A program made the translations under genes and the position numbers. A stretch of DNA of 52,898 nucleotides, from positions 1 to 52,898 of the forward strand of contig CAIMSF010000146.1 in the NCBI GenBank assembly GCA_903844055.1, in the 5' to 3' direction. The stretch is from an uncultured bacterium. GTDB taxonomy: Bacteria > Bacillota_I > Bacilli_A > Izemoplasmatales > Hujiaoplasmataceae. How positions within the stretch are numbered: the stretch's first letter is position 1; the number at the start of each line of letters is the position of its first letter. Of the stretch, positions 8,499 to 39,234 are shown one piece after another. The notes beneath the pieces are model-generated. The model worked only from the letters and a program-made list of their open reading frames with translations, did not search any database and had not been told where the DNA came from.

Positions 8499-8509
8499 GG
8501 GTGTGCTCC

Positions 8510-16244: not shown

Positions 16245-17909
16245 TCATCGGTCGAAATCGATCTTGATCCAGTCGTACGCCCCGACCAGATGGTCGACGC
16301 CCTCGCATGCATACCGTTCCGCATGGTCTTGATGGTTCATGACGATTCGTACGGTACGGCCGTCCAGGCTTCGTTCGAAGATGAATAGCGACGGATGCGG
16401 AAGGATCGAGAACGATCCGCGGCGCAGCCGGCCGTCGGCCTTGCGCCAGTCCGAAAGACGCGCGTAGAACGCAAGCAGGTCCTCGTCCCAAGTCTCCCGG
16501 CGCCAGTCCATCGTGCGCCGGTTGTCGGGGTCGTAACCGCCCTCCATGCCGATTTCGGAACCATAATAGACACATGGCATACCGATATATGCGAATTGGA
16601 ATAATATCGCCATCTTTAGCCATTTCACATTATTATTGGCTTGTGTCTTGGCGCGGGGTACGTCATGCGAGTCGATTTGGTTCAGAAGGGCTCGGGAGAC
16701 GTTCTCCGGATACATCATGGATAGATGCGTGAGGCGGTCCCGGAAAGTGTCGAGGGTCGTTTTCCGACGCAGGAAGTAATCGCCGACGATTTCGTAAAAC
16801 TGGTAGTTCTGGACCGCGTCGAACTGGTCGCCGCGGAGGTAGTAGTCCGAATTGTGCCAGACTTCGCCGATGATCGCCAGCTCCGGCTTGAGCTTCTTCA
16901 GTTCCTTGCGGAAACGTCGCCAGAAGACGGAATCGACCTCGTCGGCGACATCCAGACGCCATCCGTCGATGCCGAAACGCTCGATATAGTGCTTCCCGAC
17001 CCCGATCAGGTAGTCCTGTACCCCGGGATCGGCCGAATTCAGCTTCGGCATGTGCATCTCGGAAGCGAAGGTCTGATAGGTCTTGTCCTTCACCATCGCG
17101 ATTGGGAACGAATCGATCAAGAACCAGTCCTTGTAGATGCTCTTTTCCTGGTTTTTGAGGACGTCTTGGAAGGCGAAGAACCCGGACCCGCAATGGTTGA
17201 AGACGGCGTCGAGGACGATCCGGATGCCGGCCTGATGGAACGCGTCGACGAGCCGCTTGAACTCCGCTTCGGTGCCGAGGCGCGGGTCGATCGCAAGATA
17301 ATCAGTCGTGTCGTAGCGGTGGCAGGAGGGCGAAAGCGAGATCGGCGTCATGTAGACGGCGTTCACGCCGAGCGCGACGAGATGCGGGATCTTGCTTTCG
17401 ATGCCCGCGAAATTCCCGCCGTAGACGTGATACCACGTGGGTTTTTCGCCCCACGGCTGAAGCCCCGGCTCGGCGGCGCCTATCCGGCAGAACCGGTCGG
17501 GGAAGATCTGGTAGAAGATCGCGTCCTGCATCCATTCCGGCGCGTCGAAGCGGTCGCAGTCCTGGATCCGCGGCATCTCGTACGCGCCCATGCGGACCGG
17601 TTCCTCGCGCTGGAGGCCGTATTCGCCGTAATACCAGACGTCGTCATGCTCGACGATGCGGAAATAATAGATGCACCCATAGTTGGCGGGAACGAAGGTC
17701 GCCTGATAGTAGGCGAACAGCGCGTCGCTCCCGATCTTGACCATCGGATGGGAACGGCGGAGGCGATAATCGTGGAACCGATTGTATTCGACCAGTTCGA
17801 TCGCGAGTGCGTCGTCCTTCGCCGCGCGGAAGCGCAGCGAGAGCGCCCGCCGGTCCGCTACGTATCCCCATTCGGAGTTGGCGTGATGGAACAGCGCTTC
17901 GCGGATCAT
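16245..17909 (-). CDS. Cytoplasmic GH13 cyclomaltodextrinase/neopullulanase-type enzyme
   Basis: Alpha-glucan hydrolase of GH13, subfamily-20-like, 554 residues without a signal peptide. The N-terminal CBM34-like beta-domain (about 1-120) is the hallmark of cyclomaltodextrinases and maltogenic amylases. In the barrel, D-A-V-F-N-H is at 234-239, G-W-R-L-D gives the nucleophile Asp320, I-I-G-E-V gives the acid Glu349, and D-S-H-D gives Asp416. It should cleave imported maltodextrins or cyclodextrins to maltose and glucose. Its start overlaps the lgt stop (ATGA). A paralogue of the same type lies at 32.4 kb. Confidence 0.9.
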   Translation of the reverse strand: MIREALFHHANSEWGYVADRRALSLRFRAAKDDALAIELVEYNRFHDYRLRRSHPMVKIGSDALFAYYQATFVPANYGCIYYFRIVEHDDVWYYGEYGLQREEPVRMGAYEMPRIQDCDRFDAPEWMQDAIFYQIFPDRFCRIGAAEPGLQPWGEKPTWYHVYGGNFAGIESKIPHLVALGVNAVYMTPISLSPSCHRYDTTDYLAIDPRLGTEAEFKRLVDAFHQAGIRIVLDAVFNHCGSGFFAFQDVLKNQEKSIYKDWFLIDSFPIAMVKDKTYQTFASEMHMPKLNSADPGVQDYLIGVGKHYIERFGIDGWRLDVADEVDSVFWRRFRKELKKLKPELAIIGEVWHNSDYYLRGDQFDAVQNYQFYEIVGDYFLRRKTTLDTFRDRLTHLSMMYPENVSRALLNQIDSHDVPRAKTQANNNVKWLKMAILFQFAYIGMPCVYYGSEIGMEGGYDPDNRRTMDWRRETWDEDLLAFYARLSDWRKADGRLRRGSFSILPHPSLFIFERSLDGRTVRIVMNHQDHAERYACEGVDHLVGAYDWIKIDFDR

Positions 17910-18703
17910 GCGGCCACCTCGTTATGCGGTGCGGTCCCGGCGTCCTTCGCCAGACGAACGAGGAGGTGGACGCCGATCGCGACCATCGCGAGCGACAGGT
18001 ATTGGGATGGCGACGGATAGATGTTGCCATGAAGCGTGAAGAGGCCGACGATCGTGCCGCGGTCGTCCCCCCTGAGGAATTCCAGAAGGAAGCGGAAAAC
18101 GCCGTAGGCGGTCAAATAGGACGCGAATTCACGCCCTTTGAACAGCTTGTACGTGTGTATCGCGTACGCGGACAGAAATAGGAAAGCGGATTCGTACAGC
18201 TGCGTCGGCAGGACCGCGCCGGTCCCTGCGGAGTGTCCGTGCGGGAACACGAGACCGAACGTTTCCGACGGGATGCCGTAGCAGCAGCCCGCGCAGAAGC
18301 AGCCGAGCCGGCCGAAGCCGTGCGCGATCAGGATCCCGACGGTGACGGTGTTCAACAAGCTTCCGATGTTCTTCCATTCGGAACGGTAGAAGAACCGCAT
18401 CAAGAGCGTGAACATCGCGACGCCGCCGATCAATCCGCCGATGAAGGTGATCGAACCGAATTCGAACTCGCCGTCTTCGATCCAGTGGAAGGTGGCGTCG
18501 AAAAGCGCCGAGAACAGGAGGGCGGAGCCAAGCCCGATGACGATGAACACGAGGATCTTGTTGGCTTCCTTGCGGGTATAGCCGTCGTTCTTCTCCAGCC
18601 GGTTCCCGACATACATGAGCATCCCGAACACGCCGATGGCGGTCAAAAGGTCGTACATCGCGACGTTGTAACCCAAGACTTCTTCCCATAGGAACGGATA
18701 CAT
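17906..18703 (-). CDS. lgt: Prolipoprotein diacylglyceryl transferase
   Basis: Lgt is an integral membrane enzyme that moves diacylglycerol from phosphatidylglycerol onto the lipobox cysteine of prolipoproteins. The product has 265 residues and about seven hydrophobic segments. The signature region H-G-F-G-R-L-G-C-F-x-x-G-C-C-Y-G is present with the essential His and Arg. The start has AAGGAG nine bases upstream. The gene overlaps the GH13 gene by 4 bases, so the two are co-translated. Several clients are encoded nearby (GH16, MalE-like, amylase and YidC lipoproteins). Confidence 0.95.
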   Translation of the reverse strand: MYPFLWEEVLGYNVAMYDLLTAIGVFGMLMYVGNRLEKNDGYTRKEANKILVFIVIGLGSALLFSALFDATFHWIEDGEFEFGSITFIGGLIGGVAMFTLLMRFFYRSEWKNIGSLLNTVTVGILIAHGFGRLGCFCAGCCYGIPSETFGLVFPHGHSAGTGAVLPTQLYESAFLFLSAYAIHTYKLFKGREFASYLTAYGVFRFLLEFLRGDDRGTIVGLFTLHGNIYPSPSQYLSLAMVAIGVHLLVRLAKDAGTAPHNEVAA

Positions 18704-18769: not shown

Positions 18770-18799
18770 AAGAGAAAAGGGCACGGACGAACCGTGCCC
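18770..18799 (-). terminator. Terminator of the CBM41-malEFG operon
   Basis: GGGCACGG/CCGTGCCC perfect 8-bp stem with a 5-base loop, followed on the minus strand by TTTTCTCTTT, directly after the malG-like stop. Confidence 0.85.
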
Positions 18800-18813
18800 T
18801 CGCGCATCCCGGA

Positions 18814-19869
18814 TCAGCCCTTGGTGGCGCCGGCGGTGATGCCTTCGATGAGATAACGCTGGAAGATCATGTAGAGGACCGTGATCGGGAAGGCCACGAT
18901 GAGCGCCCCGGCGGCGAACGTCGTATACGACGAACTCCGCGGATTGTTGATCATCGAGAACAGGCCGACCGCGAGCGTCCACTGCCTGGAGACTGGAATG
19001 TCCGGGTCGATCTGGACGTCGAGCAGGAGGCGCGGCAACATGTAGTCCATCCACGGCGCCATGAATTGGCCGACGGCGACGAACGACAGGATCGGGACCG
19101 CGAGCGGCAGGATGATCTTGAAGAAGATCTGCCACTTGCTGGCGCCGTCGAGCATCGCCGACTCGTCGAGGTCCTTCGGGATCTGCGAGAGGTAACCCTT
19201 GATCAGCCAGATGTTGCCGGGGATCGAGCCGCCCACGTAGAGCACGGTGAGCCAGGTCGGCTTGCCGAGCAGATGGAACGTCTGGAACAGCGTGAACATG
19301 GCGATCAGGCCCATGAACGACGGGAACACCTGCAGGACGAGGATGGCCATCAGGCCGGCCTTCTTGCCTTTGAACTTGAAGCGGGCGAACACGTAGCCGG
19401 CGCCGGTGATGAAGATGACGCCGAGGACCATGTTGAGGACGGCGATGATCAGCGTGTTCTTGTACCAGTACAGGAAGTCGCCCTCGAACAGGTCGATGTA
19501 GTTCTGGAACGAGGCGAGGTGCGCCGGCGGGAAGAGCGTCGTCGGCAGCTCGCTGATGTTCGTGAACGAGGCGCTGATCAGGTAGACGACCGGGAACAGG
19601 ACGAAGAACACGGCGGTGGTGAGAAACAGGAACGTCAGGATCTTCATGCCGATTTCCTTGAAGGAGAAGACCTGGCGGTACGCGCCGACGAGCACTTGCT
19701 TCTTGTTGGCAAGATGGAGCGCATGATACAGTCCGTAGCCCGGGACGAGGCCCATGAGCGCGCCGCGGAAGGGCGGGTAGCCCTTGTGGGCGTAGACGTC
19801 GGCGGTGATCGCGCTGTGGGTGAAGAGCAGGGAGATGAGGACGATGATGGTCAATGTGAGCGGCAGCAT
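18814..19869 (-). CDS. Maltodextrin ABC transporter permease, MalG-like
   Basis: One of two membrane subunits of the maltodextrin importer, 351 residues. The standard MalG core with six membrane segments begins near residue 75. The EAA loop that contacts the ATPase reads D-E-S-A-M-L-D-G-A-S, followed by I-L-P-L. An extra N-terminal section of about 70 residues (hydrophobic segment 1-20, then V-P-G-Y-G-L-Y-H-A) is unusual for MalG. It is the last gene of the operon, 5 bases after the malF-like stop. No ATPase gene (MalK/MsmX type) is present in the window, so a shared one elsewhere is inferred. Confidence 0.92.
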   Translation of the reverse strand: MLPLTLTIIVLISLLFTHSAITADVYAHKGYPPFRGALMGLVPGYGLYHALHLANKKQVLVGAYRQVFSFKEIGMKILTFLFLTTAVFFVLFPVVYLISASFTNISELPTTLFPPAHLASFQNYIDLFEGDFLYWYKNTLIIAVLNMVLGVIFITGAGYVFARFKFKGKKAGLMAILVLQVFPSFMGLIAMFTLFQTFHLLGKPTWLTVLYVGGSIPGNIWLIKGYLSQIPKDLDESAMLDGASKWQIFFKIILPLAVPILSFVAVGQFMAPWMDYMLPRLLLDVQIDPDIPVSRQWTLAVGLFSMINNPRSSSYTTFAAGALIVAFPITVLYMIFQRYLIEGITAGATKG

Positions 19870-19874
19870 GTTCG

Positions 19875-22334
19875 TCAGTCCTCCTTAAATGCTCGCGTCT
19901 GCGAGAAGTTCCAGGCCGCGATGGACCCGACCATGAGGAAGATGAGGATCGAGAAGACGGACGCCATGTTGTAGACGCGCTTCGTGACGGTCAGCGTGTA
20001 CATCCAGGAAATCAGGATGTCCGTGCTGCCGGCATAGGCCCTGTCGATATCGCCCGCGCCGGATCCTCCTTGGGTGATGAAGTAGATGACGCCGAAGTTG
20101 TTGAAGTTGCCGGAGAAGGTCATGACGAGGATCGGCGACGTCGAGAACATGATGAGCGGGAACGTGATGTACTTGAATTTCTGCGAAGGCGTCGCGCCGT
20201 CGATGTCGGCGGCCTCGTAGAGGGTCCGGTCGATCGAGGTCATGATCGAGGTCATGAGGGCCATGAAGTACGGCGCCCCGAGCCAGATGTTGACGACGAT
20301 CAGGACGATCCGGACGAACCAGACGTTGTGCGCGTTGTTGAACCACTGGATGTTGTCCTGGCCGAGCCAGATGAACTTCTGCCAGGCCGACAGGGCCGTT
20401 TCGCTCCACGCCGTGCCGAGCATCCCCCAACGGGTCAGGGTGTCGTACACGCCGGCGGAACGCAGGAGCGCGTTGATGACGCCGCGTTCGCTGAAGATGA
20501 TCGAGAAGGCCATCTGCGAGATCAGCGCGGGCACGGCCCACGGCAGGATCAGGAGGGTTCTCCAGAATTTCTTGAAGGGGACGCGTTCGGAACTGATCAC
20601 GACCGCCTGGAACATGCCGCCGAAGAAGACGGTCACGGTTGAGAAGACAGCCCAAATCACGGTCCAGAACAGGACTTTCCAGAACGTCTCGGCGAACGGG
20701 ATGCCTTCGCCGAACGTGAAGATGCGGGCGAAGTTCTCGAACCCGACCCACATGAAGCGTCCGGTGTCGGTGTCGAAGCCGCTGAAGTTCGTGAAGGCGA
20801 TCAAAAAGCCGAAGACGATCGGCATGATCGAGATGAAGGTGATGACGAAGAGCGCCGGCAAGATCATGATGTATTCGAAGCCGTGCGTGAAGACGCTCAC
20901 GAACCATTCGCGGTCGGTCACGCGCTCACCCGTTTGGGCGAACTTCCTGCTCGTCGAATAGGCGTCGATGATGCCCCAGACATACGTCAGGAGGAAATAG
21001 GCGAACAGAAGCGTCGAGATCAGACCCGAGATGAGCAGGAACTGCGAGGTATGCCCGATCAGCGGCGTGTAGTCGAGGATTCCCGATACCGGGATGTAGA
21101 CCGCCGATCCTTCCGTGAAGCGGACGGATTTAAGGGCGTCGTGGAGCGAGTTGTAGTAATACTCGCGCTTGTCGGACTGACCGAGCGTCAGGACCGACCA
21201 GAACCCCTTGACGAAGAATCCCGCGGTGTCGTGGAACCAGTTGTAATAGTTCTCCTCGAATTCCGTCCGGAGTTCGGGATGGACCGAGAAATAGACTTCG
21301 AGCAGGAAGCGGTTGTATTCCTTCGAGGTCAGGCTGCTCGTCGAGAGGTTGTAGCGCGTCGTGATGTAGTTGCGCAGATAGCTCGAGAAGGCGGTGGCGT
21401 TGTAGCCGGCGTCCTTCCGATAGTCGATTTCCGGGATGAACTGCACATACAGCGTGTCGGTGTCGTCGACGACGATGTTGCCCTTGACCGTCAATTCCTT
21501 CAGATCGTCGACCAGCGGATCCTCGGGATCGATGAAGTCGGTGCTGTCGGCGATGTTGACATAACGGTAAATGGCGGTCGAGGTGACCGAAATCGACTTC
21601 GTGCATTTGATGTAGACCTTGTCGGCGACGGCGTCGAGGAAGATCACGCCGGTGCGGTAGTAGGAGTCGGCTCCGTCCGGAATCTCGGTGATCGTATCGT
21701 CCGGGTCGTTGACGTTGGTATAGACGTCCGCGGTCTGTTCGCTGCCGATCGTGTAGTATTCCTGTCCGCCGACGTTGTAGACGGTGAAACCGGAGAGGAC
21801 GCGATAGAAGTCCTTCGCCGCGATCGCCTCGTCGTCCTCGCCGATGATCAGGTCGTTGGCTTCGTCGACCGTGCCGGTGTTCGAGGTCCGCGCGGTCGTC
21901 GAGGTCACGACGAGATCGTCGATCAGGGTGAAATAGCGCGGGGTCGAATGGGCGAGGATGTCGGTTGCGGTGAAGTCGACCAGATCGCGCATCGTGAATC
22001 CGTCGGCGTCGGCGCTTTCGATCGCGTAGAAGGCGTCGAACGTGTCGAACGCATCGATTTCATCGCCGTCGACCTGGTACCGATACAGACTGTAGAAACC
22101 TCTCGCGAAACTGTCGGGATACAATTCGCCGACGCCCGAGTTCGCGTCGCTTACGACCTTGATGTAGGAATCATAATCGCTGAAATAGCGGCTCGAACCA
22201 AGTTCGACGCCGAGGAAGAGCGCGAACACGAAGAAGAAGACGAGCGCCTTCCAGAACTGCTTATTGAAAACCTGGCCGAGGCCGGGCACGATCGCCGAAG
22301 CGACCGCCTTGATCACATGAACGGTTTTGTTCAT
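19875..22334 (-). CDS. Maltodextrin ABC transporter permease, MalF-like, with large extracellular domain
   Basis: Second membrane subunit of the importer, 819 residues, far longer than E. coli MalF (514) or typical Gram-positive MalF proteins. After a cytoplasmic V-P-G-L-G-Q-V-F-N-K segment and a first membrane helix (about 29-45), a hydrophilic region of about 385 residues (46-430), rich in Asp, Thr and Tyr, should lie outside the cell. Membrane segments resume at about 432-455 and 488-512, and the C-terminal half is a normal permease with the EAA loop E-A-A-D-I-D-G-A. The extracellular region has no family I recognise; it may receive or hold the binding protein, as the MalF P2 loop does. 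GGAGG precedes the start. Confidence 0.92.
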   Translation of the reverse strand: MNKTVHVIKAVASAIVPGLGQVFNKQFWKALVFFFVFALFLGVELGSSRYFSDYDSYIKVVSDANSGVGELYPDSFARGFYSLYRYQVDGDEIDAFDTFDAFYAIESADADGFTMRDLVDFTATDILAHSTPRYFTLIDDLVVTSTTARTSNTGTVDEANDLIIGEDDEAIAAKDFYRVLSGFTVYNVGGQEYYTIGSEQTADVYTNVNDPDDTITEIPDGADSYYRTGVIFLDAVADKVYIKCTKSISVTSTAIYRYVNIADSTDFIDPEDPLVDDLKELTVKGNIVVDDTDTLYVQFIPEIDYRKDAGYNATAFSSYLRNYITTRYNLSTSSLTSKEYNRFLLEVYFSVHPELRTEFEENYYNWFHDTAGFFVKGFWSVLTLGQSDKREYYYNSLHDALKSVRFTEGSAVYIPVSGILDYTPLIGHTSQFLLISGLISTLLFAYFLLTYVWGIIDAYSTSRKFAQTGERVTDREWFVSVFTHGFEYIMILPALFVITFISIMPIVFGFLIAFTNFSGFDTDTGRFMWVGFENFARIFTFGEGIPFAETFWKVLFWTVIWAVFSTVTVFFGGMFQAVVISSERVPFKKFWRTLLILPWAVPALISQMAFSIIFSERGVINALLRSAGVYDTLTRWGMLGTAWSETALSAWQKFIWLGQDNIQWFNNAHNVWFVRIVLIVVNIWLGAPYFMALMTSIMTSIDRTLYEAADIDGATPSQKFKYITFPLIMFSTSPILVMTFSGNFNNFGVIYFITQGGSGAGDIDRAYAGSTDILISWMYTLTVTKRVYNMASVFSILIFLMVGSIAAWNFSQTRAFKED

Positions 22335-22380
22335 TGGATACCTCCCATGACATGCTTCCGATCCTTCCACTTATTAGGAA

Positions 22381-22429: not shown

Positions 22430-23737
22430 TTATTTCGAGCCGAGCGCCTTGGATGCGAGATACGATGCTTCGGCTTTCTTCTGTTCCGTCGCGATGTCGG
22501 CGTTGGTGTCCCAGATGTTGACGACCATCGTTTGCGCGGCCGCCCAGTAATAGGTGACTTCGGCGATGGTGGGCATCGGGATGGAGGTCTGGAGCTGTTC
22601 GATCATGACGGTCATGAACGGGTCGTCGAGAACGCCTTCGATGTTCGAAAGGTCGATCAGGGCCGGCAGGTCGTTCGAGGTCGTGTACAGGATTTCCTGG
22701 GCGGTTTCGCTGGCGAGGAATTCGACGAACTTGATCGCGGCTTCGCGGTTCGAGGAGTTCTTGTAGACGGCGACCATCTGCGAGCCGGCATAGGTGCTCG
22801 GCGTGTGGGTCGCGCCTTCGACGCCGTCAAACGTCGGGAGGACGGCGGCGCCGAGGTTCTCGGCACCGATCGCATCCTGCATCGAGCGAATCGACCACGG
22901 GCCGGCGATCATCATCGCGGCGGCGCCTTGTTCGAACAGCGTGGTGGAGGCGGAGTTGTACGCGTCGTTTCCGGTGACGACCGGCTTCAGTTCGGTGGTC
23001 AGCCAGTTGAGCGCGGCGAGCAGTTCGTCGGATTCGAAGCCGACTTGCGTGCCGTCGATGCCGTCAACGCCGTGCGGACGCCATCCGAAGGCGGAGTAGA
23101 CCGTCTGGAGGTAGTAGTTGTCGGCCCAATGGGAGTTGGTCGTGAGCAACTGCTCGCCGGGGTGGTCGATCGCATACTGTTCGGCGGCGGCGATCAGTTC
23201 GGGCCAGCTGTCGAGCGCGGCGACTTCTTCGGCGCTGATGAGTTCCTTGTTGTACATCATGAAGATCGATTCGATCGAGATCGGGACGGCATACAGCGCT
23301 TCATTGCTCGAGCCGAGCGTGCCGGCGGTCGCGATGTCGAGGGCGATCGGCTGAACCGTCGCCTTCAGCGTGGTGAGCAGCGAGTCCGGAAGCGTGTAGA
23401 CGAGGTCTTCGAGCATGGCGAGCGAGAGGTGGTCATGCGGGAACATGAACACGTCGGCTCCGAGTCCTTCGACGAGACCATAGGTCTTCAGGTCGTTGCG
23501 GGAGTCGAGGGCGCCCTTGTGCTGGAATTCGACGATGATGTCCGGATAGACTTCGTTGAAGGCCGGGATGACTTCGGCGGCGAAGACGCCGTCGGTGTCG
23601 TCGAGCCACACGGTGATCGTGGTGGGCTGGGTCTGGCTTTCGGAGAAGTCGATGATGTTGTCTTCGAGTTCGACGCCGCAGGCGGAGAGCGCGAAGAGGA
23701 CGATGAGGGTCAAAAATACGCTAAGAAGTTTTTTCAT
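22430..23737 (-). CDS. Maltodextrin-binding lipoprotein, MalE-like
   Basis: Extracellular solute-binding protein of family 1, 435 residues, tethered by lipid at Cys20 (lipobox L-S-A-C). After the signal peptide and a short acidic linker, the mature fold starts with T-I-T-V-W-L-D-D and includes typical family features such as Y-A-V-P-I-S-I-E-S, M-Y-N-K-E-L and A-M-M-I-A-G-P-W. It delivers maltodextrins to the two permeases encoded downstream. The start ATG-AAA-AAA-CTT has AGGAGA upstream; it is 23 bases after the CBM41-like gene, with no separate promoter seen. Confidence 0.93.
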   Translation of the reverse strand: MKKLLSVFLTLIVLFALSACGVELEDNIIDFSESQTQPTTITVWLDDTDGVFAAEVIPAFNEVYPDIIVEFQHKGALDSRNDLKTYGLVEGLGADVFMFPHDHLSLAMLEDLVYTLPDSLLTTLKATVQPIALDIATAGTLGSSNEALYAVPISIESIFMMYNKELISAEEVAALDSWPELIAAAEQYAIDHPGEQLLTTNSHWADNYYLQTVYSAFGWRPHGVDGIDGTQVGFESDELLAALNWLTTELKPVVTGNDAYNSASTTLFEQGAAAMMIAGPWSIRSMQDAIGAENLGAAVLPTFDGVEGATHTPSTYAGSQMVAVYKNSSNREAAIKFVEFLASETAQEILYTTSNDLPALIDLSNIEGVLDDPFMTVMIEQLQTSIPMPTIAEVTYYWAAAQTMVVNIWDTNADIATEQKKAEASYLASKALGSK

Positions 23738-23760
23738 GGCAGTGTCTCCTCTCATCCCAC

Positions 23761-26184
23761 TCAGAACCATTCTTTTCGGCGGGCGAAGAAGAACGCGACG
23801 CCGAAGAGTCCGAGGATCCCGATGCTCGCGTTCTGCGCGGCGCAGCCGGTTTCCGGTGCTGTGATGGTGATGTTGAACGTTGCCTGGGTTTCATTGCCCC
23901 AGTCGTCGTAGGCGGTGACGGTGATCGGGTAGACGCCGGCCTTGTTCATGTTGACGATGCCTTCTTCGGGCTTCACATAAATCCGGTCGGAGACGTTTCC
24001 GTCGCGGTCGTCGATGGCGCGGATGTTCGGCCAGTAGCTGGTGTCCCAAGCCGTTCCGGCGACGAACGTGAGTTCTTCGGTGAGCAGGACGGTGATGACC
24101 GGGCCCTCGGCGTCCGTGACGACATCGACTTCGGCGGCGCGGTTGTCAAGGCCTTCGGCGCCGTTGTCGAACTGCAGGACATATTCATGTCCGGATTCGA
24201 GTTCGACGTTGAGTTCGACGGCGAGTTCGGTGATGACGTCCTTGTCCTCATTGAAGCTGACGCTCTTGATCGCGTTTTCGACGGCGACGCCATCCTTCAG
24301 CAGGGTGAACATGGCGGCGACATCGTACAGAGCGCGTTCGTAACTGGTTTCTTCATATTCGACATAGTCGTAGATCGCGACTTTTTCGGTTTCGACCATC
24401 AGTTCGAGGACGAAGCGGTCGTGATCGGGAGACCAGGTCTTGTCGCTGAAGCCGGTATAGACGACGAGGACGTCGCCGGCAACCATCGTGCCGAAGCCGG
24501 CGCCGGTGCCGTTGTTGACGTCGCCGGTCTTCTTGGAGGGATCGTCACCGGCATAGACCAAGTAACCGATCCAGTCTTCTTCGACCGCGGGATCGAAGGA
24601 GTTCATGACGGCGACGCCGGGAACATCGTCCGGGCTCTTGAAGGACTCCGTCATCGGGATCGACTGACCCCAGTCGCCTTCCTGGTTGGTCCAGGAGCCC
24701 CAGGTGTAGATGCCGAGGTTGGCTTCGTAGGTTCCGTCGCTCTCATAATACAGCGTGATGATGTTGGCTTTGGCCGGGTCGGCGACGAAGTACGTCTGGA
24801 AGCCGCCCTGGAAGTAGTAGACATGGATTTCGTCGACGGTGCCGTTCTTGATCGCGGTGACGTCGAAGTTGATGTGCTGTCCGTCCGGCGTTTCGCGGTA
24901 GGTCCAGCGGTCGTCGGTGCCGATCGAGTCGGCGATCGGGATCAAGCCGATGGTGTCGGAAGCGTCGTCGTCGACGTTGATGACCATGACGGCGCCGAAA
25001 TCATCGACGCCCGAGCGGATGACCGGTGCGCCCGTTCCGTCCGTGCCGGTGCCCCAGGTCCACAGACCGACGTCGGAATAGTCGCTGTCCCACTTCTGAT
25101 AGTGGAAGACGACGCGGCCGGCGACGTTGCTGGGAATGTCGGAAGCGACGTACGGATCATAGACGGTGTCGTCGATCGTGATTCCGCCGGATCCGGTCGG
25201 AATGTATTCGTAACCGACGATTTCGTACAGTTCGTAGGTGGTGACGATCGGCTGGGTCATGTCTTCGTAGGCCGAAGCGACTTCCGCCGAGAACTTGACC
25301 TGGATGATCGACTTGGTCAACGCGTAGGTTCCGTCGAGTTTGCCTTCGATCATGCTGTAAGGCGTGAACTTGAAGGCGAACGAGGAATCGGCGAAGAGGG
25401 TGACGTTGTCGAATCCCTGCCACTGTTCGGCCGCCGCATAGAGGGCGGTGCAGTCGCCGGCGACAAGGCCGGTCACATCGATCGCGACGTCGCCGGTTTT
25501 CTTGGTGGCGTCGTTGCCCGCGTAGATGATGAGGTTCGGCGTGCCGCCGTCAACGATGGCCTGCGCCATGCCGACTTTGCCGAGTTTGCCTTCCGGCGTG
25601 GTGAATTCGCCGGTGAAGATCGGCGTCGGGGTGCCCCAAACGCCCCACGAGCCGATATTCGCGTCGTTGTACCATCCGCCCCAAGCATGGAGGCCGAGGT
25701 TCTCTTCATACACTTCGGAAGCGGTGAAATAGACGACGAAGACGTTGATGTACTCTTCGCTGGCGACGAAAATCGTGTCGGATCCGCTGAAGAAATACAC
25801 ATGCATCGTCGCGCCGGCCGCCGCCGCGGTGACGTCGAGCGAAAGGTCGGCATCGCCCTTGGAGTCCTTGTTGGACCAACGGTTGTCATTGCCGATTTCA
25901 GCCGAGATCGGAATGATGCCGGCGGTGGTCGCATCCGCGCCGATGGCGATTTCGATCACGGCGCCGAAATCATCGACGCTGGTCTTCTCCAGACCGTTCG
26001 AACTGCCGTCGGTGCCGGTGCCCCAAACCCAAAGACCGACACTGTCATATACTCCGTCCCACTTCTGATAGTGGAACACGACTTGTCCGGCCGCGGCGGC
26101 GTCGACGGTGAGATTCTTCGTCGACATCGCGAAGCCGAGCAAAGCCGTTACCGCGAAAAACAGTAGCAACAGACTTTTTTTCAT
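23761..26184 (-). CDS. Surface starch-binding protein with duplicated CBM41/PUD-like modules and P-E-T-G-C anchor
   Basis: Secreted protein of 807 residues without any glycosidase domain. A signal peptide (about 1-30) is followed by two related repeats, about 28-270 and 385-625. Each opens with V-V-F-H-Y-Q-K-W-D, continues G-L-W-x-W-G-T-G-T-D-G and ends near K-K-T-G-D-V. Each repeat appears to hold two CBM41-type (pullulanase-associated, alpha-glucan-binding) modules, four in all. A DUF5011/Ig-like domain follows at about 690-775. The C-terminus is A-P-E-T-G-C (Cys781), a hydrophobic stretch and R-R-K-E-W-F, like a sorting signal. It leads the malEFG operon; a role in capturing starch at the cell surface is inferred. 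AGGAGG precedes the start. Confidence 0.85.
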   Translation of the reverse strand: MKKSLLLLFFAVTALLGFAMSTKNLTVDAAAAGQVVFHYQKWDGVYDSVGLWVWGTGTDGSSNGLEKTSVDDFGAVIEIAIGADATTAGIIPISAEIGNDNRWSNKDSKGDADLSLDVTAAAAGATMHVYFFSGSDTIFVASEEYINVFVVYFTASEVYEENLGLHAWGGWYNDANIGSWGVWGTPTPIFTGEFTTPEGKLGKVGMAQAIVDGGTPNLIIYAGNDATKKTGDVAIDVTGLVAGDCTALYAAAEQWQGFDNVTLFADSSFAFKFTPYSMIEGKLDGTYALTKSIIQVKFSAEVASAYEDMTQPIVTTYELYEIVGYEYIPTGSGGITIDDTVYDPYVASDIPSNVAGRVVFHYQKWDSDYSDVGLWTWGTGTDGTGAPVIRSGVDDFGAVMVINVDDDASDTIGLIPIADSIGTDDRWTYRETPDGQHINFDVTAIKNGTVDEIHVYYFQGGFQTYFVADPAKANIITLYYESDGTYEANLGIYTWGSWTNQEGDWGQSIPMTESFKSPDDVPGVAVMNSFDPAVEEDWIGYLVYAGDDPSKKTGDVNNGTGAGFGTMVAGDVLVVYTGFSDKTWSPDHDRFVLELMVETEKVAIYDYVEYEETSYERALYDVAAMFTLLKDGVAVENAIKSVSFNEDKDVITELAVELNVELESGHEYVLQFDNGAEGLDNRAAEVDVVTDAEGPVITVLLTEELTFVAGTAWDTSYWPNIRAIDDRDGNVSDRIYVKPEEGIVNMNKAGVYPITVTAYDDWGNETQATFNITITAPETGCAAQNASIGILGLFGVAFFFARRKEWF

Positions 26185-26222
26185 TTTTTCCTCCTGTAAT
26201 GATTTTTGTCTCTGTCCACAAG

Positions 26223-26292
26223 TGTAAGCGCTTGTGTCCATTTGAACGTGTTTAATTCTACTACTTTCATATAATGAATGCAAGCGTTTTTA
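26223..26292 (-). promoter_or_regulatory. Promoter and two cre-like operators of the CBM41-malEFG operon
   Basis: TTGCAT (26278-26283) and TAGAAT (26255-26260) on the minus strand with a 17-base spacer. TGTAAGCGCTTGTG (26223-26236), with the palindromic core AAGCGCTT, lies about 12-25 bases into the transcript. TGCAAGCGTTTTTA (26279-26292) overlaps the -35. Both resemble TGWAANCGNTNWCA (11 and 12 of 14 positions). A LacI-family repressor (CcpA or MalR type) is the likely binder. Confidence 0.6.
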
Positions 26293-26305
26293 CTGCTGTG
26301 CAAAA

Positions 26306-26358
26306 CGTAATCGGTTACAGACTCAAATGCGAAAAACCCACATTTTTTGTGCTAGAAT
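26306..26358 (+). promoter_or_regulatory. Pullulanase promoter with upstream cre-like operator
   Basis: CGTAATCGGTTACA (26306-26319) matches the cre consensus at 13 of 14 positions. The -10 is TAGAAT (26353-26358) preceded by TGC, an extended -10; no good -35 is seen. The operator lies about 45-60 bases before the expected start, between the two divergent promoters. Confidence 0.55.
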
Positions 26359-26398
26359 AGAGACGTACATCCGATTCACCATACAAGGGGGAATTTCC

Positions 26399-29251
26399 GT
26401 GATTAAAAAGATCGCTTTGATTCTGTTTCTTGCATCGTCGCTCCTGTTCATTCCGACCTTCCGGCGCGTCGAGGCCACCACCGCGTCCCCGACCGAAACG
26501 ATGGTGATCCACTATTTCCGCTATGGTGCCGACTATGACGACGGCTGGAACATGTGGTTGTGGCCCGCCAACGGCGCCGGCGCCGCCTATCAGTTCGACA
26601 CCGATCAAACCGGCGTCGTCACCGACGACTTCGGCGCGGTCGCCACGATCGACCTGACCACCAACTTCGCGAGCGCGTCCTCCATCGGCATCATCATGCG
26701 CCAGGGCGAGTGGGTGAAGAAGGATGTCGACAAGGACCGCTTCATCACCGTCCCGGCGACGACCGCGGACGGCACGCTCCACGTCTACTTCGTCGAAGGA
26801 GACGAGCGGATCGGTTATTCGATCGACGATCCCGCCGGGCCCGACCGCTCGGACAAGATCGTCAACGCCTACTTCAGCACGCTCAGGACGATCCGCTTCA
26901 CCCTGACGTCCGTCATCGCCTCCGGCAACATCAACCTCAAGGTCAACGGCGTCGACGCGAGCTTCACGATCGCGCTCTCCGCCAACACCGGCACGATCAC
27001 GATCCCCTCGAACGTCAACCTCGAGAACACCTACACGCTCGAAGTGCTGTTCGGATCCGAACTCAAGACGTATGACGTCACGTTCGACGGCATCTACGAT
27101 ACGACCGCCTTCATCGACGCCTACGGCTATGACGGCGACGACCTTGGCGCCGTGGTCAACGCCTCGACCACCGACTTCCGCGTGTGGGCGCCGATCTCAT
27201 CCTCGGTCGTGCTCAAAATCTATGATTCCGGCACCCCCGCGAGACTTCTCGCCAAGGATGCCGCCGCGACCGACACGCCTTCCCAGACGGTCGCGATGAC
27301 GAAGAGCGTGAAGGGCACCTGGACCGCCTCCCTCCCCGGAAATCTGCACGGCAAATACTACACCTACACCGTCACCAACGGCATCAAGACCAACGAGCTG
27401 GTCGACCCGTATGCGAAGAGCTGCGGCATCAACGGCCTCCGCGGGATGGTCGTCGACTTCAGCCAGACCAACCCCGCCGGCTTCACCTACGGCGACCGTC
27501 CCGGTTCGATGCTGAACTACACGGACGCGATCATCTATGAAGTCCACGTCCGCGACCTCACGAGCCATTCGAGCTGGGTCGTCGCAAGCGGTCAGGAGGC
27601 TTATCGCGGGAAATTCCTCGGCTTCACCGTCGAAGGTACGACCTACCAGGGCGTCTCGACCGGCATCGACCACATCAAGGAACTCGGCGTCACCCATGTC
27701 CAGATCCTCCCGTTCTTCGACTATGGAGCCGCCGTCGACGAATCCGGATCGGCCACCCAGTTCAACTGGGGCTACATGCCGCTCAACTTCAACTGCCTCG
27801 AAGGCCACTACTCGACCAACCCGTATAACGGCGCCGTTCGCGTGAACGAATTCAAGCAGCTGATGGCGACGATGTCGGAAAACGGTTTGCGCGTCGTCAT
27901 GGACGTCGTCTACAACCACACCGGCCAAAGCGGCGATTCCAACTTCAGCATGATCCTCCCCGGCTACTACTACCGCATGAACGGCGACGGATCGTTCTCG
28001 AACGGATCCGGCACCGGCAACGAGACGGCCTCCGAACGCTACATGATGCGCAAGTTCATGGTCGATTCCGTGACCTTCTGGGCGGAAGAATACAACATCT
28101 CCGGATTCCGCTTCGACCTGATGGCGCTCCACGACGTCGACACGATGAACCAGATCGTCGCCGCGCTCCATGAGATCGACGACACCATCCTCGTCTACGG
28201 CGAACCGTGGACCGGCGGCGGAACGCCCCTGTCGGCCTCGATCGCGGCCGACAAGGCCAACCTCGTCGACATGCCCGGCGTCGCGGCCTTCAACGACGAC
28301 TTCCGCAACGCCGTCAAGGGCAACCCCGACGGCACCGAGGATGGATTCGTGCAAGACGCGAAAACCACCTCGATCATCAACCGGCTCAAATACGGCGTCG
28401 CCGGCGGCGTCCAACTCCCCGGCATCACGACCGAAGGCCTCTCGTGGGGCAAATTCTGGAACGACAATCCGAGCCAGACCCTGAACTACGTCACCGCCCA
28501 CGACAACCTGACCCTCTTCGACAAACTGACGTACACCGCGACCTTCGCCCAGAAGAGCGGCGGCCTCATCAAGGAAATGCAGAAGCAGGCCAACGCGCTC
28601 GTCCTCACGGCGCAGGGCATCCCGTTCCTGCATGCCGGCGAGGAGTTCCTGCGCTCCAAGCCGTGCGTCGCCGGCGACAATCCCGACGTCTGCGTCGCCT
28701 CCAAGTACAACCGCAACTCCTACCAGTCGCCCGACGCCGTCAACCAGTTGCGCTGGGACCTCAAGGCCCAGGACGACAACATGGAGGTCTTCGAGTATTA
28801 CAAGGACCTGATCGAACTCCGCAAGGCCCATCCGGCCTTCCGGCTGTCGACCGCCGCGGAAGTCGAGGCGCATCTTTCCTTCATCGACTTCGACGACAAC
28901 TCGGTGCTCGGCTACACGATCTCCGACTACGCCAACGGCGACTCCTGGGATACGATCCTGGTGATCCACAACACCGGCGAATTCGCCACCGTCACGCTGC
29001 CGGCCGGCGACACCTGGAATCTCGTGGGCAACCAGGACGGCATCGGTACGGACGTCATCCAGACCTATGCGGGCGGCGCGTCGATGTTCGTCATGGAAAA
29101 CGAGACCGTGGTCCTCTATCAGGGCGTGGTCGTCGTGCCCGAGGAACCGGATACCGGATGCAACTTCCTCGGCTTCCACTTCGGCTCGGTCTTCTATTCG
29201 ATGGGCGCCATCTGTCTCGCGTTCTTCGTCCTCATCCGCAAAAAGCATTAA
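26399..29251 (+). CDS. Cell-surface pullulanase (GH13_14-like) with CBM41 and P-D-T-G-C anchor
   Basis: Extracellular type I pullulanase that debranches alpha-1,6 links in starch or glycogen, 950 residues. GTG start with AAGGGGGA upstream. Signal peptide to about residue 26 (V-E-A), CBM41 at about 33-150, CBM48 at about 240-340, then the pullulanase landmark Y-x-V-H-V-R-D and the GH13 barrel: D-V-V-Y-N-H-T, G-F-R-F-D with nucleophile Asp573, G-E-P-W with acid Glu602, and T-A-H-D with Asp702. The end is E-P-D-T-G-C (Cys921), a hydrophobic stretch and R-K-K-H, matching the anchor of the neighbouring CBM41-like protein. It is transcribed divergently from that gene across a shared regulatory region. 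Confidence 0.94.
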   Translation: MIKKIALILFLASSLLFIPTFRRVEATTASPTETMVIHYFRYGADYDDGWNMWLWPANGAGAAYQFDTDQTGVVTDDFGAVATIDLTTNFASASSIGIIMRQGEWVKKDVDKDRFITVPATTADGTLHVYFVEGDERIGYSIDDPAGPDRSDKIVNAYFSTLRTIRFTLTSVIASGNINLKVNGVDASFTIALSANTGTITIPSNVNLENTYTLEVLFGSELKTYDVTFDGIYDTTAFIDAYGYDGDDLGAVVNASTTDFRVWAPISSSVVLKIYDSGTPARLLAKDAAATDTPSQTVAMTKSVKGTWTASLPGNLHGKYYTYTVTNGIKTNELVDPYAKSCGINGLRGMVVDFSQTNPAGFTYGDRPGSMLNYTDAIIYEVHVRDLTSHSSWVVASGQEAYRGKFLGFTVEGTTYQGVSTGIDHIKELGVTHVQILPFFDYGAAVDESGSATQFNWGYMPLNFNCLEGHYSTNPYNGAVRVNEFKQLMATMSENGLRVVMDVVYNHTGQSGDSNFSMILPGYYYRMNGDGSFSNGSGTGNETASERYMMRKFMVDSVTFWAEEYNISGFRFDLMALHDVDTMNQIVAALHEIDDTILVYGEPWTGGGTPLSASIAADKANLVDMPGVAAFNDDFRNAVKGNPDGTEDGFVQDAKTTSIINRLKYGVAGGVQLPGITTEGLSWGKFWNDNPSQTLNYVTAHDNLTLFDKLTYTATFAQKSGGLIKEMQKQANALVLTAQGIPFLHAGEEFLRSKPCVAGDNPDVCVASKYNRNSYQSPDAVNQLRWDLKAQDDNMEVFEYYKDLIELRKAHPAFRLSTAAEVEAHLSFIDFDDNSVLGYTISDYANGDSWDTILVIHNTGEFATVTLPAGDTWNLVGNQDGIGTDVIQTYAGGASMFVMENETVVLYQGVVVVPEEPDTGCNFLGFHFGSVFYSMGAICLAFFVLIRKKH

Positions 29252-29266
29252 TCCACGAAGTTGAAA

Positions 29267-29308
29267 ATCGGGTCGGTCCCGCGCTGGGATCCGACCCGAT
29301 CTTTTTTT
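29267..29308 (+). terminator. Terminator of the pullulanase gene
   Basis: ATCGGGTCGG/CCGACCCGAT 10-bp stem, which GGTCCC/GGGATCC may extend, followed by CTTTTTTT. A textbook factor-independent terminator that reaches to the stop of the convergent DUF1189 gene. Confidence 0.92.
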
Positions 29309-30152
29309 ATACTTCCTTATTGGAAACTTCTTTCACGTTCGACCCTTTCAGGATCGCCATCAGCGCGATCAGGGGCGTGAGCAACTGGAAGAGGACGACG
29401 GTGAAGGCGTTGACCTCCATGATCCCGAGCAGGCCGATGAAGAATCCGATCAGCGAGGGGATCGTCATCGACGCGACCACGATCCGGATGTTCTCCGCGA
29501 AACCGGTGACCTTCTGATAACGGACGCGGACGAGCAGGAAGATCGCGGAAATCACGAGGACCAGGATGAGGTTCAGGACGAGTGTGACGAAGGTGAAGTA
29601 CACCGTCGACTTGAAGACCGCCGGACCCGAGAAGGCCTCGTCGATCATCGTCACGAATTTCTCGAGGGCGAGGTCTTCGGACGACATCAGTTTGAGTTCT
29701 CCGAAATTGACGGTCGTGACGACGGTGCCGTATCCGACGTCGAAGAGCTCGGCCCCGTCCTCGCCGCAGTAGGCGATGCGATCGGGTTCGAACACGAGCG
29801 CCCGCCCGGTCGCCGCGTAGCCGCCTTCGGGGGCGAACACGATGAAGAGCGGATCGCCTTCGACGTTGACGGTCTCGAAGACGGACGTCGCGGTGTCGGA
29901 ATAGGTCATCCCGCGCGGCGAGACGATGATGTCGGAGGGTAGCCCGGCGGGAAGCCAGTCCGGCGTGTCGCTGCGGATTCCGCCTGTGAAATTGTAGAGG
30001 TCCCAGCCGCCCGAACGGACGATCTGGTAGTTGAGCGGAAAGCTCATGAGCAGGACGAGAAACAAGAAGTAGAACACGAACCCGCGGAACGGCGCGGTCT
30101 TGAGCGAGAAGATGCGTTTGAAGGAAAACCCGTTCGCGATGATCCGAAGCAT
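29307..30152 (-). CDS. DUF1189 membrane protein, maltodextrin-utilisation YvdJ/MalA-like
   Basis: Integral membrane protein of 281 residues with the DUF1189 layout: a helix at about 25-45, an extracellular section of about 120-140 residues, then three to four hydrophobic segments in the C-terminal half. The family includes Bacillus YvdJ and streptococcal MalA, encoded in maltodextrin operons, which fits the setting. Its biochemical role is unknown; assisting transporter assembly is a guess. The ATG start has GGAGG 7 bases upstream and overlaps the amylase stop (TGATG), so it is translationally coupled; a TTG one codon earlier is the alternative. Confidence 0.78.
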   Translation of the reverse strand: MLRIIANGFSFKRIFSLKTAPFRGFVFYFLFLVLLMSFPLNYQIVRSGGWDLYNFTGGIRSDTPDWLPAGLPSDIIVSPRGMTYSDTATSVFETVNVEGDPLFIVFAPEGGYAATGRALVFEPDRIAYCGEDGAELFDVGYGTVVTTVNFGELKLMSSEDLALEKFVTMIDEAFSGPAVFKSTVYFTFVTLVLNLILVLVISAIFLLVRVRYQKVTGFAENIRIVVASMTIPSLIGFFIGLLGIMEVNAFTVVLFQLLTPLIALMAILKGSNVKEVSNKEV

Positions 30153-31747
30153 CAATCCGCCTCCGGGGTGACGTCGATGATGAGGGTGGAGCGGGCGGGG
30201 ATCTCGGTGATCGCGCCGCCCACGTCGGTTCCGCTCAGATACAGGACGGTGCCCGCGATGTCCGGCATCGCGGCCGCTTCATCGTCGAAGTTGTGGATGA
30301 CGAGGACGCGCTGCGTCATCTCTTCGTAGGCGTATTCGCGGTAGAAGCCGGCAAGCGACGCGGACGAATCCTCCCACGCGGTGAAGCTGTTCCCGTAGGC
30401 GAGCGCCATGTTCGCGTTGCGGACCGCCAGGATCGCGGTATAGAGGGAGAGCAGCGATTCCGGGTCGGCGAGTTGTTCCGCCGCCGTGCCGACGGCGGCG
30501 TTCGCGGCTTCCATGTTCGCAAGCGTCTGGCTGGAAGAGGCGATCCAGTCGGTCTGGGCTTCATCGCCCCAGACGAACGGCATCCGGCGCGTCTCGTCCC
30601 AGATGTCGGGTCCGGAGGCCTTGACGCCGAACATCCCGAGTTCCTCGCCGTAGTAGATGATCGGATTGCCGGGAAGCACCAGGAGCATCTCGGCGGCGAG
30701 CTTCATCATCGCCGTGTTGCCGAGAACCTGCGAGGCGAAACGATCCATGTCATGGTTGGCGATGAAGGGAGCGTCGATGAAGTTTTGATTGATGTCGCGG
30801 TAATAATCGTACCACACCTCGAGGTTCTCGGCGTAGTTGTAGTTCTTGGTCTTCTGGGCGGCGGAACGGATCTTCGCGGCGAGCGGGAAGTTGATCGGCG
30901 CGTCGAGGCCGTAGAAATAGGTCGCGGGGATCTTGTAGTCGGATTCGATGTAGGCTTCGCCGATCACGTAGATGTCATCCGCATAGGCGTCGATCGCCGC
31001 CGAGTAGGCGTCGAGATAGATGATGTTGTTATAAAAATCGTACGTTTCGTCGAGATACTCGTTCTCGCCATAGAAGTGGTGCACGGCGTCGAGGCGGAAG
31101 CCTTTGACGCCCTTGTCGATCCAGAACTTCGAGATGTCTTCGATTTCCGTCTTGACGGCGTCGCTGTAGAAGTTCAGGTCGGGCATCGTATGGGAGAAAT
31201 AGCCGCAATACTTGAAGGCGTCGGTCGTATGCCAGATGTTCTGATTCCAGCTGCCGAAGATCCGCGAGGTGTCGGTCGCCTTCGGGATGGTGACGTAATA
31301 ATCGAGATACGTCGCGTCTCCGGCTTGCGCGGCGACGAACCACGGATGCTGGTTGGAGGTGTGGTTGAAGACCATGTCGAGCATCACGCGGATGCCCGCG
31401 GCGTCGGCCGCCGCGACCATGTTCTCGAAGTCCGCCATCGTCCCGTAATCGGGATTGACGTCGTAATAATCCATGACGTCATATCCGTGATACGAGGGGG
31501 ACGGATGGATCGGCATGAGCCAGATGCCCTTGACGCCAAGGGATTGAAGATACCCCATCTTGGCGGTGATCCCGTTGAAATCGCCGATCCCGTCGTCATC
31601 GCTGTCGGCGAAGCTGCGGACCAGGATTTCGTAATAGACCCCGGCTTCGGGGTTGACTTCGGCAAGGTCGATCTCGTTTCCCTTGCACGCCGCGATTCCG
31701 AAGAGCAGGAACAGGGCGATGGTGGCGGCGCTTATTTTTTTAATCAT
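30152..31747 (-). CDS. Alpha-amylase lipoprotein (GH13)
   Basis: Surface-anchored GH13 alpha-amylase, 531 residues, with a lipoprotein signal ending at Cys21 (G-I-A-A-C). The barrel follows closely: Y-Y-E-I-L-V-R-S-F-A-D-S-D, D-M-V-F-N-H-T at 124-130, G-F-R-L-D with nucleophile Asp220, V-I-G-E-A with acid Glu264, and A-N-H-D with Asp333. A short C-terminal beta-domain follows. Calcium-site-like D-S-D-D-D-G-I-G-D lies at 48-56. It should cut starch or dextrins outside the membrane, feeding the MalEFG importer. It sits in the RDD-amylase-DUF1189 operon; its start overlaps the RDD stop by 8 bases. Confidence 0.93.
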   Translation of the reverse strand: MIKKISAATIALFLLFGIAACKGNEIDLAEVNPEAGVYYEILVRSFADSDDDGIGDFNGITAKMGYLQSLGVKGIWLMPIHPSPSYHGYDVMDYYDVNPDYGTMADFENMVAAADAAGIRVMLDMVFNHTSNQHPWFVAAQAGDATYLDYYVTIPKATDTSRIFGSWNQNIWHTTDAFKYCGYFSHTMPDLNFYSDAVKTEIEDISKFWIDKGVKGFRLDAVHHFYGENEYLDETYDFYNNIIYLDAYSAAIDAYADDIYVIGEAYIESDYKIPATYFYGLDAPINFPLAAKIRSAAQKTKNYNYAENLEVWYDYYRDINQNFIDAPFIANHDMDRFASQVLGNTAMMKLAAEMLLVLPGNPIIYYGEELGMFGVKASGPDIWDETRRMPFVWGDEAQTDWIASSSQTLANMEAANAAVGTAAEQLADPESLLSLYTAILAVRNANMALAYGNSFTAWEDSSASLAGFYREYAYEEMTQRVLVIHNFDDEAAAMPDIAGTVLYLSGTDVGGAITEIPARSTLIIDVTPEAD

Positions 31748-37835: not shown

Positions 37836-37860
37836 GTAGATGATACGCGAGAGGTATGAC

Positions 37861-39234
37861 ATGGAAGAATTCCAAAAGCTCTGGGAACAGATCAAAGCCA
37901 AACTGCAAATCATCCTCGACGAGGACGTTTACAACGAAACGTTCGCCGGTATCACGAGTGTTTTCAAGATCGTAAACAACTACGTCTACCTCGTTGCGCC
38001 GAACTCGTTCATCAAGGGAAAAATCGAATCGTTCTACCTCAACCGCCTCAACGGCATGCTCAACGAACTGGTGCAGGAAAAGCACATGTTCAAGATCATC
38101 ACCAAAGAGCAGGCGGCCGAGGAGCTCGCCAAGGCCCCCTACGCCGTCAACAGCCCGGAACAGGGTCTCGCAGATAAGTACAAAACCGGGCTCAACAACT
38201 CCTATACTTTCGAAAACTTCGTCGTCGGCGCATCCAATCGCCTGGCCTATACGTCGGCCATCAAGGTCGCCGACCAACCGGGCGTGATCTCCAACCCGCT
38301 CTACATCTTCGGCGAAGTCGGATTGGGCAAAACCCATCTGATGCAATGCGTCGGCAACTACATTCTCGAGAACGACGTGAACAAGAAGGTCCTGTACGTC
38401 AAGACCGACCAGTTCATCGAGGATTATGCGAAGGCGTCGGTCAAGAAAACGTTCGATGAATTCTCCAAGAAATACGAGAACGTCGACATCCTCCTCGTCG
38501 ACGACATCCAATTCCTGTCCGGCAAGAACCAATCGCAGCTTGAGTTCTTCAAGATCTTCGAGAAACTGAAGGAAAACAACAAGCAGATCGTCATCACGTC
38601 CGACCGCCCCGCCACCGAACTCTACGACATCATGTCGCGTCTGACCAGCCGGTTCTCCTGGGGACTCTCGGTCGACATCAATCGTCCGTCGCTCGATCAC
38701 CGCATCCAGATTCTCAAGAAGAAGCTGCAGGCGGAGACCTCTGATCCGGAACTCGTGCCTGACAACGTCCTCGAATACGTCGCCAGCATCTTCGACAACA
38801 ACGTGCGTGAACTGGAAGGCGCATTGAAACGCGTGCTTTTCTATTGTACCGCGTTCGACTACAAGTTCACCATCGCCAACGCCGAGGAAGCCTTGAAGAA
38901 TCTGATCAACACCAAGAAGATTTCCAACAGCGCGATGGCCAACGGCAATTTCAACGCGGTCCTCGACATCGTGAGCGCCTATTACCATATCACGACATCG
39001 GATCTGCTCTCCAACAAACGCACCAAACAATACGTCTATCCGCGTCAGGTTTCGATGTACATCCTGAAGGAAGTCTACGATCTCACCTACAAGAAAATCG
39101 GCCAGATTTTCAACGACAAGGACCACTCTACGGTGATCTATTCGATCGAGCAGATCGCCAACGACATGCAGACCGACAAAGACAAGAAAACAGATATCGA
39201 GAAGCTGTTGATAAAGTGTGGAAAAAAGGCGTAA
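37861..39234 (+). CDS. dnaA: Chromosomal replication initiator protein DnaA
   Basis: DnaA binds the boxes upstream, melts the origin and loads the helicase; it also acts as a transcription factor. The product has 457 residues: domain I (about 1-85), short linker, AAA+ domain with Walker A G-E-V-G-L-G-K-T at 151-158 and Walker B L-L-V-D-D-I-Q-F, and a C-terminal HTH domain with D-H-S-T-V-I-Y-S, the box-recognition signature. The start at M-E-E-F-Q-K-L has AGAGG upstream; an in-frame ATG seven codons earlier lacks a site. Confidence 0.98.
   Translation: MEEFQKLWEQIKAKLQIILDEDVYNETFAGITSVFKIVNNYVYLVAPNSFIKGKIESFYLNRLNGMLNELVQEKHMFKIITKEQAAEELAKAPYAVNSPEQGLADKYKTGLNNSYTFENFVVGASNRLAYTSAIKVADQPGVISNPLYIFGEVGLGKTHLMQCVGNYILENDVNKKVLYVKTDQFIEDYAKASVKKTFDEFSKKYENVDILLVDDIQFLSGKNQSQLEFFKIFEKLKENNKQIVITSDRPATELYDIMSRLTSRFSWGLSVDINRPSLDHRIQILKKKLQAETSDPELVPDNVLEYVASIFDNNVRELEGALKRVLFYCTAFDYKFTIANAEEALKNLINTKKISNSAMANGNFNAVLDIVSAYYHITTSDLLSNKRTKQYVYPRQVSMYILKEVYDLTYKKIGQIFNDKDHSTVIYSIEQIANDMQTDKDKKTDIEKLLIKCGKKA

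Follow-up and report, generated by a model that had tools for sequence, protein, structure and literature searches.

A non-catalytic CBM41 protein encoded ahead of malEFG in an uncultured Izemoplasmatales bacterium, with a candidate Lgt2-associated C-terminal anchor

Introduction

SusE and SusF of Bacteroides are outer-membrane lipoproteins in the SusCD system, and they share with the protein described here a proposed role in non-catalytic capture of starch at the cell surface. Outside the Bacteroidetes, Sas20 and Sas6 of Ruminococcus bromii are likewise non-catalytic, multi-domain, starch-binding proteins, and Sas20 is part of amylosome complexes (PMC9112005). The binding domains of Sas20 are not termed CBM41 in the abstract of that paper, whereas the present protein combines CBM41 modules with a membrane-spanning (TM) tail and linkage to malEFG. 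The pullulanase CBM41 modules of Thermotoga maritima PulA (structures 2j71/2j72), SpuA (2ya1/2j44) and Eubacterium rectale Amy13K (6az5) resemble two of its modules (1a and 2a) both in sequence and in fold, and the other two (1b and 2b) only through a weak fold match. It differs from them in apparently placing four modules on an enzyme-free protein, two of which are too diverged for profile detection. A literature search yielded no publication on CBM41 proteins that stand alone.

For the C-terminus, two kinds of described anchor are comparable, namely the LPXTG/sortase system and the MYXO-CTERM/myxosortase system. In the latter, Cys-containing C-terminal tags are modelled as undergoing lipidation and then cleavage, and an Lgt-like enzyme was named as candidate lipid transferase, with none identified as dedicated to the task (PMC11980579).

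Results

Host, gene and locus

The window, i.e. the whole stretch of DNA that was analysed (52,898 nucleotides), is one contig of a 1.87 Mb host genome comprising 206 contigs. The host belongs to the Izemoplasmatales (Tenericutes), a cultured member of which has been described as lacking a cell wall (PMC8397711), and is itself probably wall-less; the "Gram-positive-type" label that an earlier note gave to the locus therefore calls for caution. The genome collection lists its relatives as MAGs of Tenericutes, Acholeplasmatales, Bacillota or Izemoplasmatales. A search for viral contigs found nothing. The window also carries a dnaA-like gene recognised by eye (37840-39234) and gyrA/gyrB-like genes (5841-10609), which suggests that the replication origin is close to the starch locus.

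The gene of interest (23761..26184, minus strand), delineated by its open reading frame, profile matches and orthologues, encodes a predicted surface protein of 807 aa. It starts with an ATG at 26184 preceded by an AGGAGG ribosome site and stops at 23761-23763. Nine full-length orthologues with 52-81% identity were found in relatives, and the resulting set of ten (including the window's own) excludes a chance ORF. The reading frame and coordinates first proposed are borne out. Orthologues occur in at least 15 genomes of the Izemoplasmatales and of a second family of the same class (f18), the latter at 34-42% identity; the f18 loci L039 and L205 are one contig.

Downstream on the minus strand follow genes for a malE-like lipoprotein solute-binding protein (22430..23770; PF13416/PF01547, lipobox LSAC), a malF-like permease with a long N-terminal extension (19875..22370; PF00528) and a malG-like permease (18814..19869; PF00528). 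The MalF-like permease has 831 aa, with DUF5683 in its extension, and its orthologues in the family have about 820 aa. A type I pullulanase with an N-terminal CBM41 and a TGC-TM-RKKH tail is encoded divergently on the plus strand (26399..29251; TIGR02104, PF03714). Beside the GH13 enzyme lies a conserved membrane protein without an assigned family (29307-30155), which accompanies this locus throughout the order. The arrangement of pulA divergent from CBM41 protein-malE-malF-malG was the same in every checked locus of the window's family and in f18, and spans 10 or more species. The CBM41 protein gene thus heads the mal genes, as had been claimed. The distance between this gene and malE is short and contains no terminator-like site; co-transcription with malEFG is suggested by gene spacing together with the conserved order, which form its sole basis.

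A terminator-like hairpin (18777..18801, minus strand) follows malG, with a promoter-like site (18753-18725) after it, and these two elements argue against a single operon that includes the next gene, lgt2 (17906..18703, minus strand). Next comes a GH13 neopullulanase/cyclomaltodextrinase-like enzyme (16245..17909, minus strand; PF00128, PF02903).

The divergent promoter region (26185..26398, 214 bp) contains three LacI/GalR-type operator-like palindromes (26224, 26280, 26307) within 26224-26318, identified by pattern match. All exact matches to the operator pattern RTAANCGNTTNY in the 52.9 kb window fall within this region, and with one mismatch allowed the whole window holds 34 matches against 26.9 expected, which is not above chance. 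The palindromes are therefore no more than suggestive as putative regulatory sites.

In family f3, proteins of 486-536 aa that combine two CBM41 modules with an Ig-like domain and a TM tail, or else longer variants, take the place in front of malE. One of the longer variants (L069:8788-10977) carries two CBM26 starch modules preceding two CBM41 modules. L074:3827-8284 encodes a CBM41-containing surface protein of 1485 aa that has both a TGC tail and a lamin tail domain and adjoins a GC-tailed pullulanase.

Domain architecture of the CBM41 protein

The protein consists of a signal peptide, a first module pair (1a and 1b), a connector and a second pair (2a and 2b), after which come a beta-rich region, the Ig-like domain and the TM tail; all of these parts are encoded on the minus strand. 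The Sec signal peptide (residues 1-29, 26098..26184), recognised from the sequence and modelled as a helix at residues 2-17, has no lipobox cysteine, and an N-terminal Cys is present in 0/10 orthologues. Internal duplication, described previously as two long repeats, is confirmed by the alignment of residues 27-249 with the second half (40.6% identity over 234 aa, E 2e-38).

Modules 1a (residues 32-144, 25753..26091) and 2a (residues 355-472, 24769..25122), which are 50% identical, are canonical CBM41 modules. PF03714 scores 92.2 bits over two stretches (E 4e-26, above the curated cut-off), the single stretches scoring 52.3 and 42.2 bits and covering 1a and 2a only, and the profile matches 10/10 full-length orthologues. 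The PUD/CBM41 match spans residues 35-139, with a second copy from about 355. Module 1a matches the T. maritima PulA CBM41 (2j71) by sequence, with the LWxW pair aligned, and Foldseek placed 2j71/2j72 first with a TM-score by target of 0.73-0.76. The AlphaFold model searched is poor overall (pLDDT 66.7) and confident in the CBM41 modules (blocks roughly 66-92). Trp residues at positions aligned with the PulA module and downstream are kept in both 1a and 2a; from the CBM41 literature, we take the aligned residues to be contacts with the glucan.

Modules 1b (residues 145-256, 25417..25752) and 2b (residues 473-585, 24430..24768) resemble each other (hhalign 99.6%) and are divergent. Neither matched a CBM41 profile in Pfam, and HMM-HMM comparison was not significant, either with CBM41 or with an intermediate profile built from the short relatives. 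Modelled alone from its own and orthologous b sequences, 2b reached a pLDDT of 80.6, and its top two PDB matches in Foldseek were the CBM41 structures 2ya1 and 6az5, at a weak E of about 0.009, with mostly CGTases ranking after them. The b slot of the short f3 relatives reads LWTWxTG...FIVRTDxWxKQ...DLF, which is typical of CBM41, and Pfam detects two PUD stretches in these proteins. The b modules are thus regarded as CBM41-like because of this slot and the predicted fold, the sequence comparison being not significant, and a total of four CBM41-like modules is plausible when they are included by position and fold. Of the four CBM41 modules claimed in the earlier note, 1a and 2a hold by HMM search, whereas 1b and 2b lack a profile match and show a weak fold match; structure prediction divides likewise, the fold of 1a being nearest to PulA CBM41 and that of 2b nearest to CBM41 only weakly. 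The b modules are conserved, yet the aromatic residues of CBM41 are incomplete in them and they may be non-binding.

The connector (residues 257-354, 25123..25416) and the region after 2b (residues 586-690, 24115..24429) are beta-rich and without an assigned family, as judged by HMM-HMM comparison and the model. The Ig-like domain (residues 691-778, 23851..24114) is matched by 2kpn and by PF16403 over residues 703-773 at 26.4 bits, just under the cut-off of 27, and some short relatives exceed this cut-off; the Ig-like assignment of the earlier note is confirmed. No glycoside hydrolase profile of Pfam or NCBIfam matches the protein, in agreement with the reported absence of a glycosidase domain.

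C-terminal tail

The last 29 residues (779-807; 23764..23850, minus strand) form a TGC-TM-RRKEWF signal, in which T779, G780 and C781 are invariant in the 10 orthologues. In the CBM41 protein the tail reads P-x-T-G-C...ASI...TM...RRKEW, and the divergent pullulanase has a tail of this type too; these two proteins are the only matches to the tail profile in their own genome. The tail Cys is the sole cysteine shared by 10/10 orthologues, and in 6/10 it is the sole cysteine at all. A search of 346 genomes across the class detected the tail in 20, whose sizes all fall within 1.2-2.0 Mb. The hydrophobic, basic C-terminal tail expected of a surface anchor is present; the unusual PxTGC and the Lgt paralogue nearby had been missed by the earlier note.

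The tail is like an LPXTG/sortase anchor in having PxTG followed by a TM helix and a basic end. It differs in that Cys always follows TG in the orthologues and in that LPXTG/sortase anchoring is rejected for the order, a sortase search having found none in 90/90 genomes while the identical search was positive in 3/14 control genomes. The MYXO-CTERM-type features, i.e. an invariant Cys, a TM helix and a basic tail, are present in the tail alignments, and no curated CTERM model in NCBIfam matched the tail at E up to 1.

Other surface proteins carry comparable ends. GC-TM-RK tails were seen on unrelated surface proteins of families f7, f12 and f18 (L208, L211, L212, L213 and L214), all in small genomes, and a NAGPA-domain surface protein (L146:1795-3324, genome G020) ends in SSCFSFGG-TM-RKH with an Lgt paralogue directly after it.

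Lgt2 and CPBP proteases

The lgt2 gene lies about 5 kb downstream of the CBM41 protein gene and encodes a non-canonical Lgt paralogue (PF01790). The HGGL motif is important in Lgt; Lgt2 has FIGGL in place of this His motif, plus GC..GCCYG. Against TIGR00544 (equivalog cut-off 118.9) it scores 61.5 bits, compared with 113.2 bits for a second, canonical-looking Lgt of the same genome (L077), a copy cut by a contig end. Lgt2 without the HGGL histidine was also found at L093, L100, L101, L103, L106, L107 and L110.

Lgt2 occurs in 10/10 genomes that encode the CBM41 protein at full length, compared with 5/24 of the remaining genomes in the family; physical linkage can explain this pattern. A TGC ending was found on the CBM41 protein in 12/12 genomes with Lgt2 versus 0/8 without it (p 8e-6) and on the pullulanase in 9/13 versus 0/9 (p 0.0017). 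Searching whole genomes with the tail profile (E up to 0.01) gave 10/14 versus 0/14 (p 1.5e-4); with the profile-training genomes omitted, it gave 6/10 versus 0/14 (p 0.0016), one of the six (G037) lacking the Cys. All of these p-values are optimistic, as they come from raw counts on related genomes. A long distance separates Lgt2 from the starch genes in G035, G041 and G045, so linkage is disfavoured as the sole cause of the co-occurrence of tail and Lgt2.

In families f2 and f3 of the same order, Lgt2 adjoins a CPBP/Rce1-like protease in more than 10 genomes. No orthologue of this protease was detected in the window's family except an unlinked one in G019, and the host genome has two CPBP genes elsewhere. 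The CPBP partner scored under both cut-offs when compared with MrtJ and Mrt_core.

Discussion

What is directly established for this protein is its architecture, the CBM41 identity of two modules, the conserved gene neighbourhood and the shared tail. From its anatomy and synteny we infer a starch-capture role, which would involve alpha-glucan binding, display at the surface, joint regulation with the pullulanase and transporter genes, and cooperation between their products. The CBM41 protein is thus most probably (at roughly 0.8) a secreted, non-catalytic surface protein that captures alpha-glucans and feeds the pullulanase and MalEFG. Its C-terminal signal would hold it on the external side of the cytoplasmic membrane, where the CBM41 modules would keep starch, glycogen or pullulan-type chains close to the cell. 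Debranching of the held chains would fall to the surface pullulanase encoded divergently, which has its own CBM41 and the same tail type, and the products would be imported via MalE-MalFG and broken down by the GH13 enzymes encoded alongside. The description of a non-catalytic, internally duplicated CBM41 surface protein before malEFG is well supported by profiles, the duplication and synteny.

Other functions must be weighed against this one. The protein could act as an adhesin, anchoring the cell to alpha-glucan-bearing surfaces such as starch grains or glycogen-storing cells rather than feeding a transporter; an Ig-like stalk with a TM anchor does resemble adhesins, and PDB titles call the SpuA CBM41 modules part of a streptococcal virulence factor. 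However, its conserved first place before malE-malF-malG, divergent from pulA, in two families points to nutrition, and adhesion is unlikely to be its role. That the two proteins share a tail type and are divergently co-located, and that the b modules are conserved while short of CBM41 aromatics, would also fit a docking scaffold in which the b modules or the Ig domain contact the pullulanase and carbohydrate binding is secondary. The Trp residues retained in 1a and 2a speak against such a scaffold, as does the lack of any dockerin/cohesin-like domain, including those of amylosome type, in Pfam or NCBIfam, and we regard it as very improbable.

Descent into a relic, in which a former pullulanase without its catalytic domain would be drifting as a pseudo-enzyme, might be considered because CBM41 usually sits on pullulanases and because signal peptide, CBM41 and tail are common to this protein and its neighbour. 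Nevertheless, stop-free orthologues of full length with identities of 34-81%, the duplication, an Ig domain of its own and a fixed position indicate selection for a working protein, and the Pfam/NCBIfam profile search detected no remnant of GH13 or CBM48; decay is thus strongly disfavoured and hardly tenable. Capture of alpha-glucans for uptake accordingly stays the preferred function.

The comparison with SusE/SusF made in the earlier note is fair as a functional analogy, but the proteins are not relatives, profile searches having found no sequence relation. The present gene lies in an ABC transporter locus and its product has no N-terminal lipobox, which sets it apart from the outer-membrane lipoproteins of a SusCD locus. 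Sas20 and Sas6 are a closer precedent outside the Bacteroidetes, although the Foldseek match to Sas6 (7uwu/7uww) is not confident (probability about 0.2), and this precedent makes the protein less novel than first implied.

The anchor, as a hypothesis, is the less expected part compared with the capture protein itself. The link between tail and Lgt2 suggests a C-terminal lipid anchor of MYXO-CTERM-like type. The adjacency of Lgt2 and CPBP in f2 and f3 is the sort of arrangement that the model of PMC11980579, with lipidation followed by cleavage, would predict. Likenesses to MYXO-CTERM/myxosortase and JDVT-CTERM/MrtJ include the invariant Cys, TM helix and basic cluster, the CPBP proteases as putative partners and the Lgt-like lipidating enzyme proposed in PMC11980579; here, by contrast, no NCBIfam model matches, and the tested CPBP protein falls below the MrtJ and Mrt_core cut-offs and is non-adjacent in the window's family. 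Tentatively, and with some doubt, the TGC-TM-RK tail may be an undescribed C-terminal lipid-anchoring signal (a prior description being possible), in which Lgt2 would acylate the Cys and the CPBP/Rce1-like protease found beside Lgt2 in f2 and f3 would remove the TM helix. Its clients would include the CBM41 protein and the pullulanase, and in wall-less Bacillota it would serve as a substitute for sortase.

Collectively, the locus points to a compact starch-capture system beyond the Bacteroidetes and R. bromii, made of CBM41 modules and belonging to environmental Bacillota that probably lack a wall. The link between tail and Lgt2 makes the question of a dedicated lipid transferase testable (cf. 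PMC11980579), since an Lgt paralogue co-occurs with Cys tags and adjoins a CPBP protease in related families. If the hypothesis is true, a lipid anchor would stand in for sortase anchoring in wall-less Bacillota.
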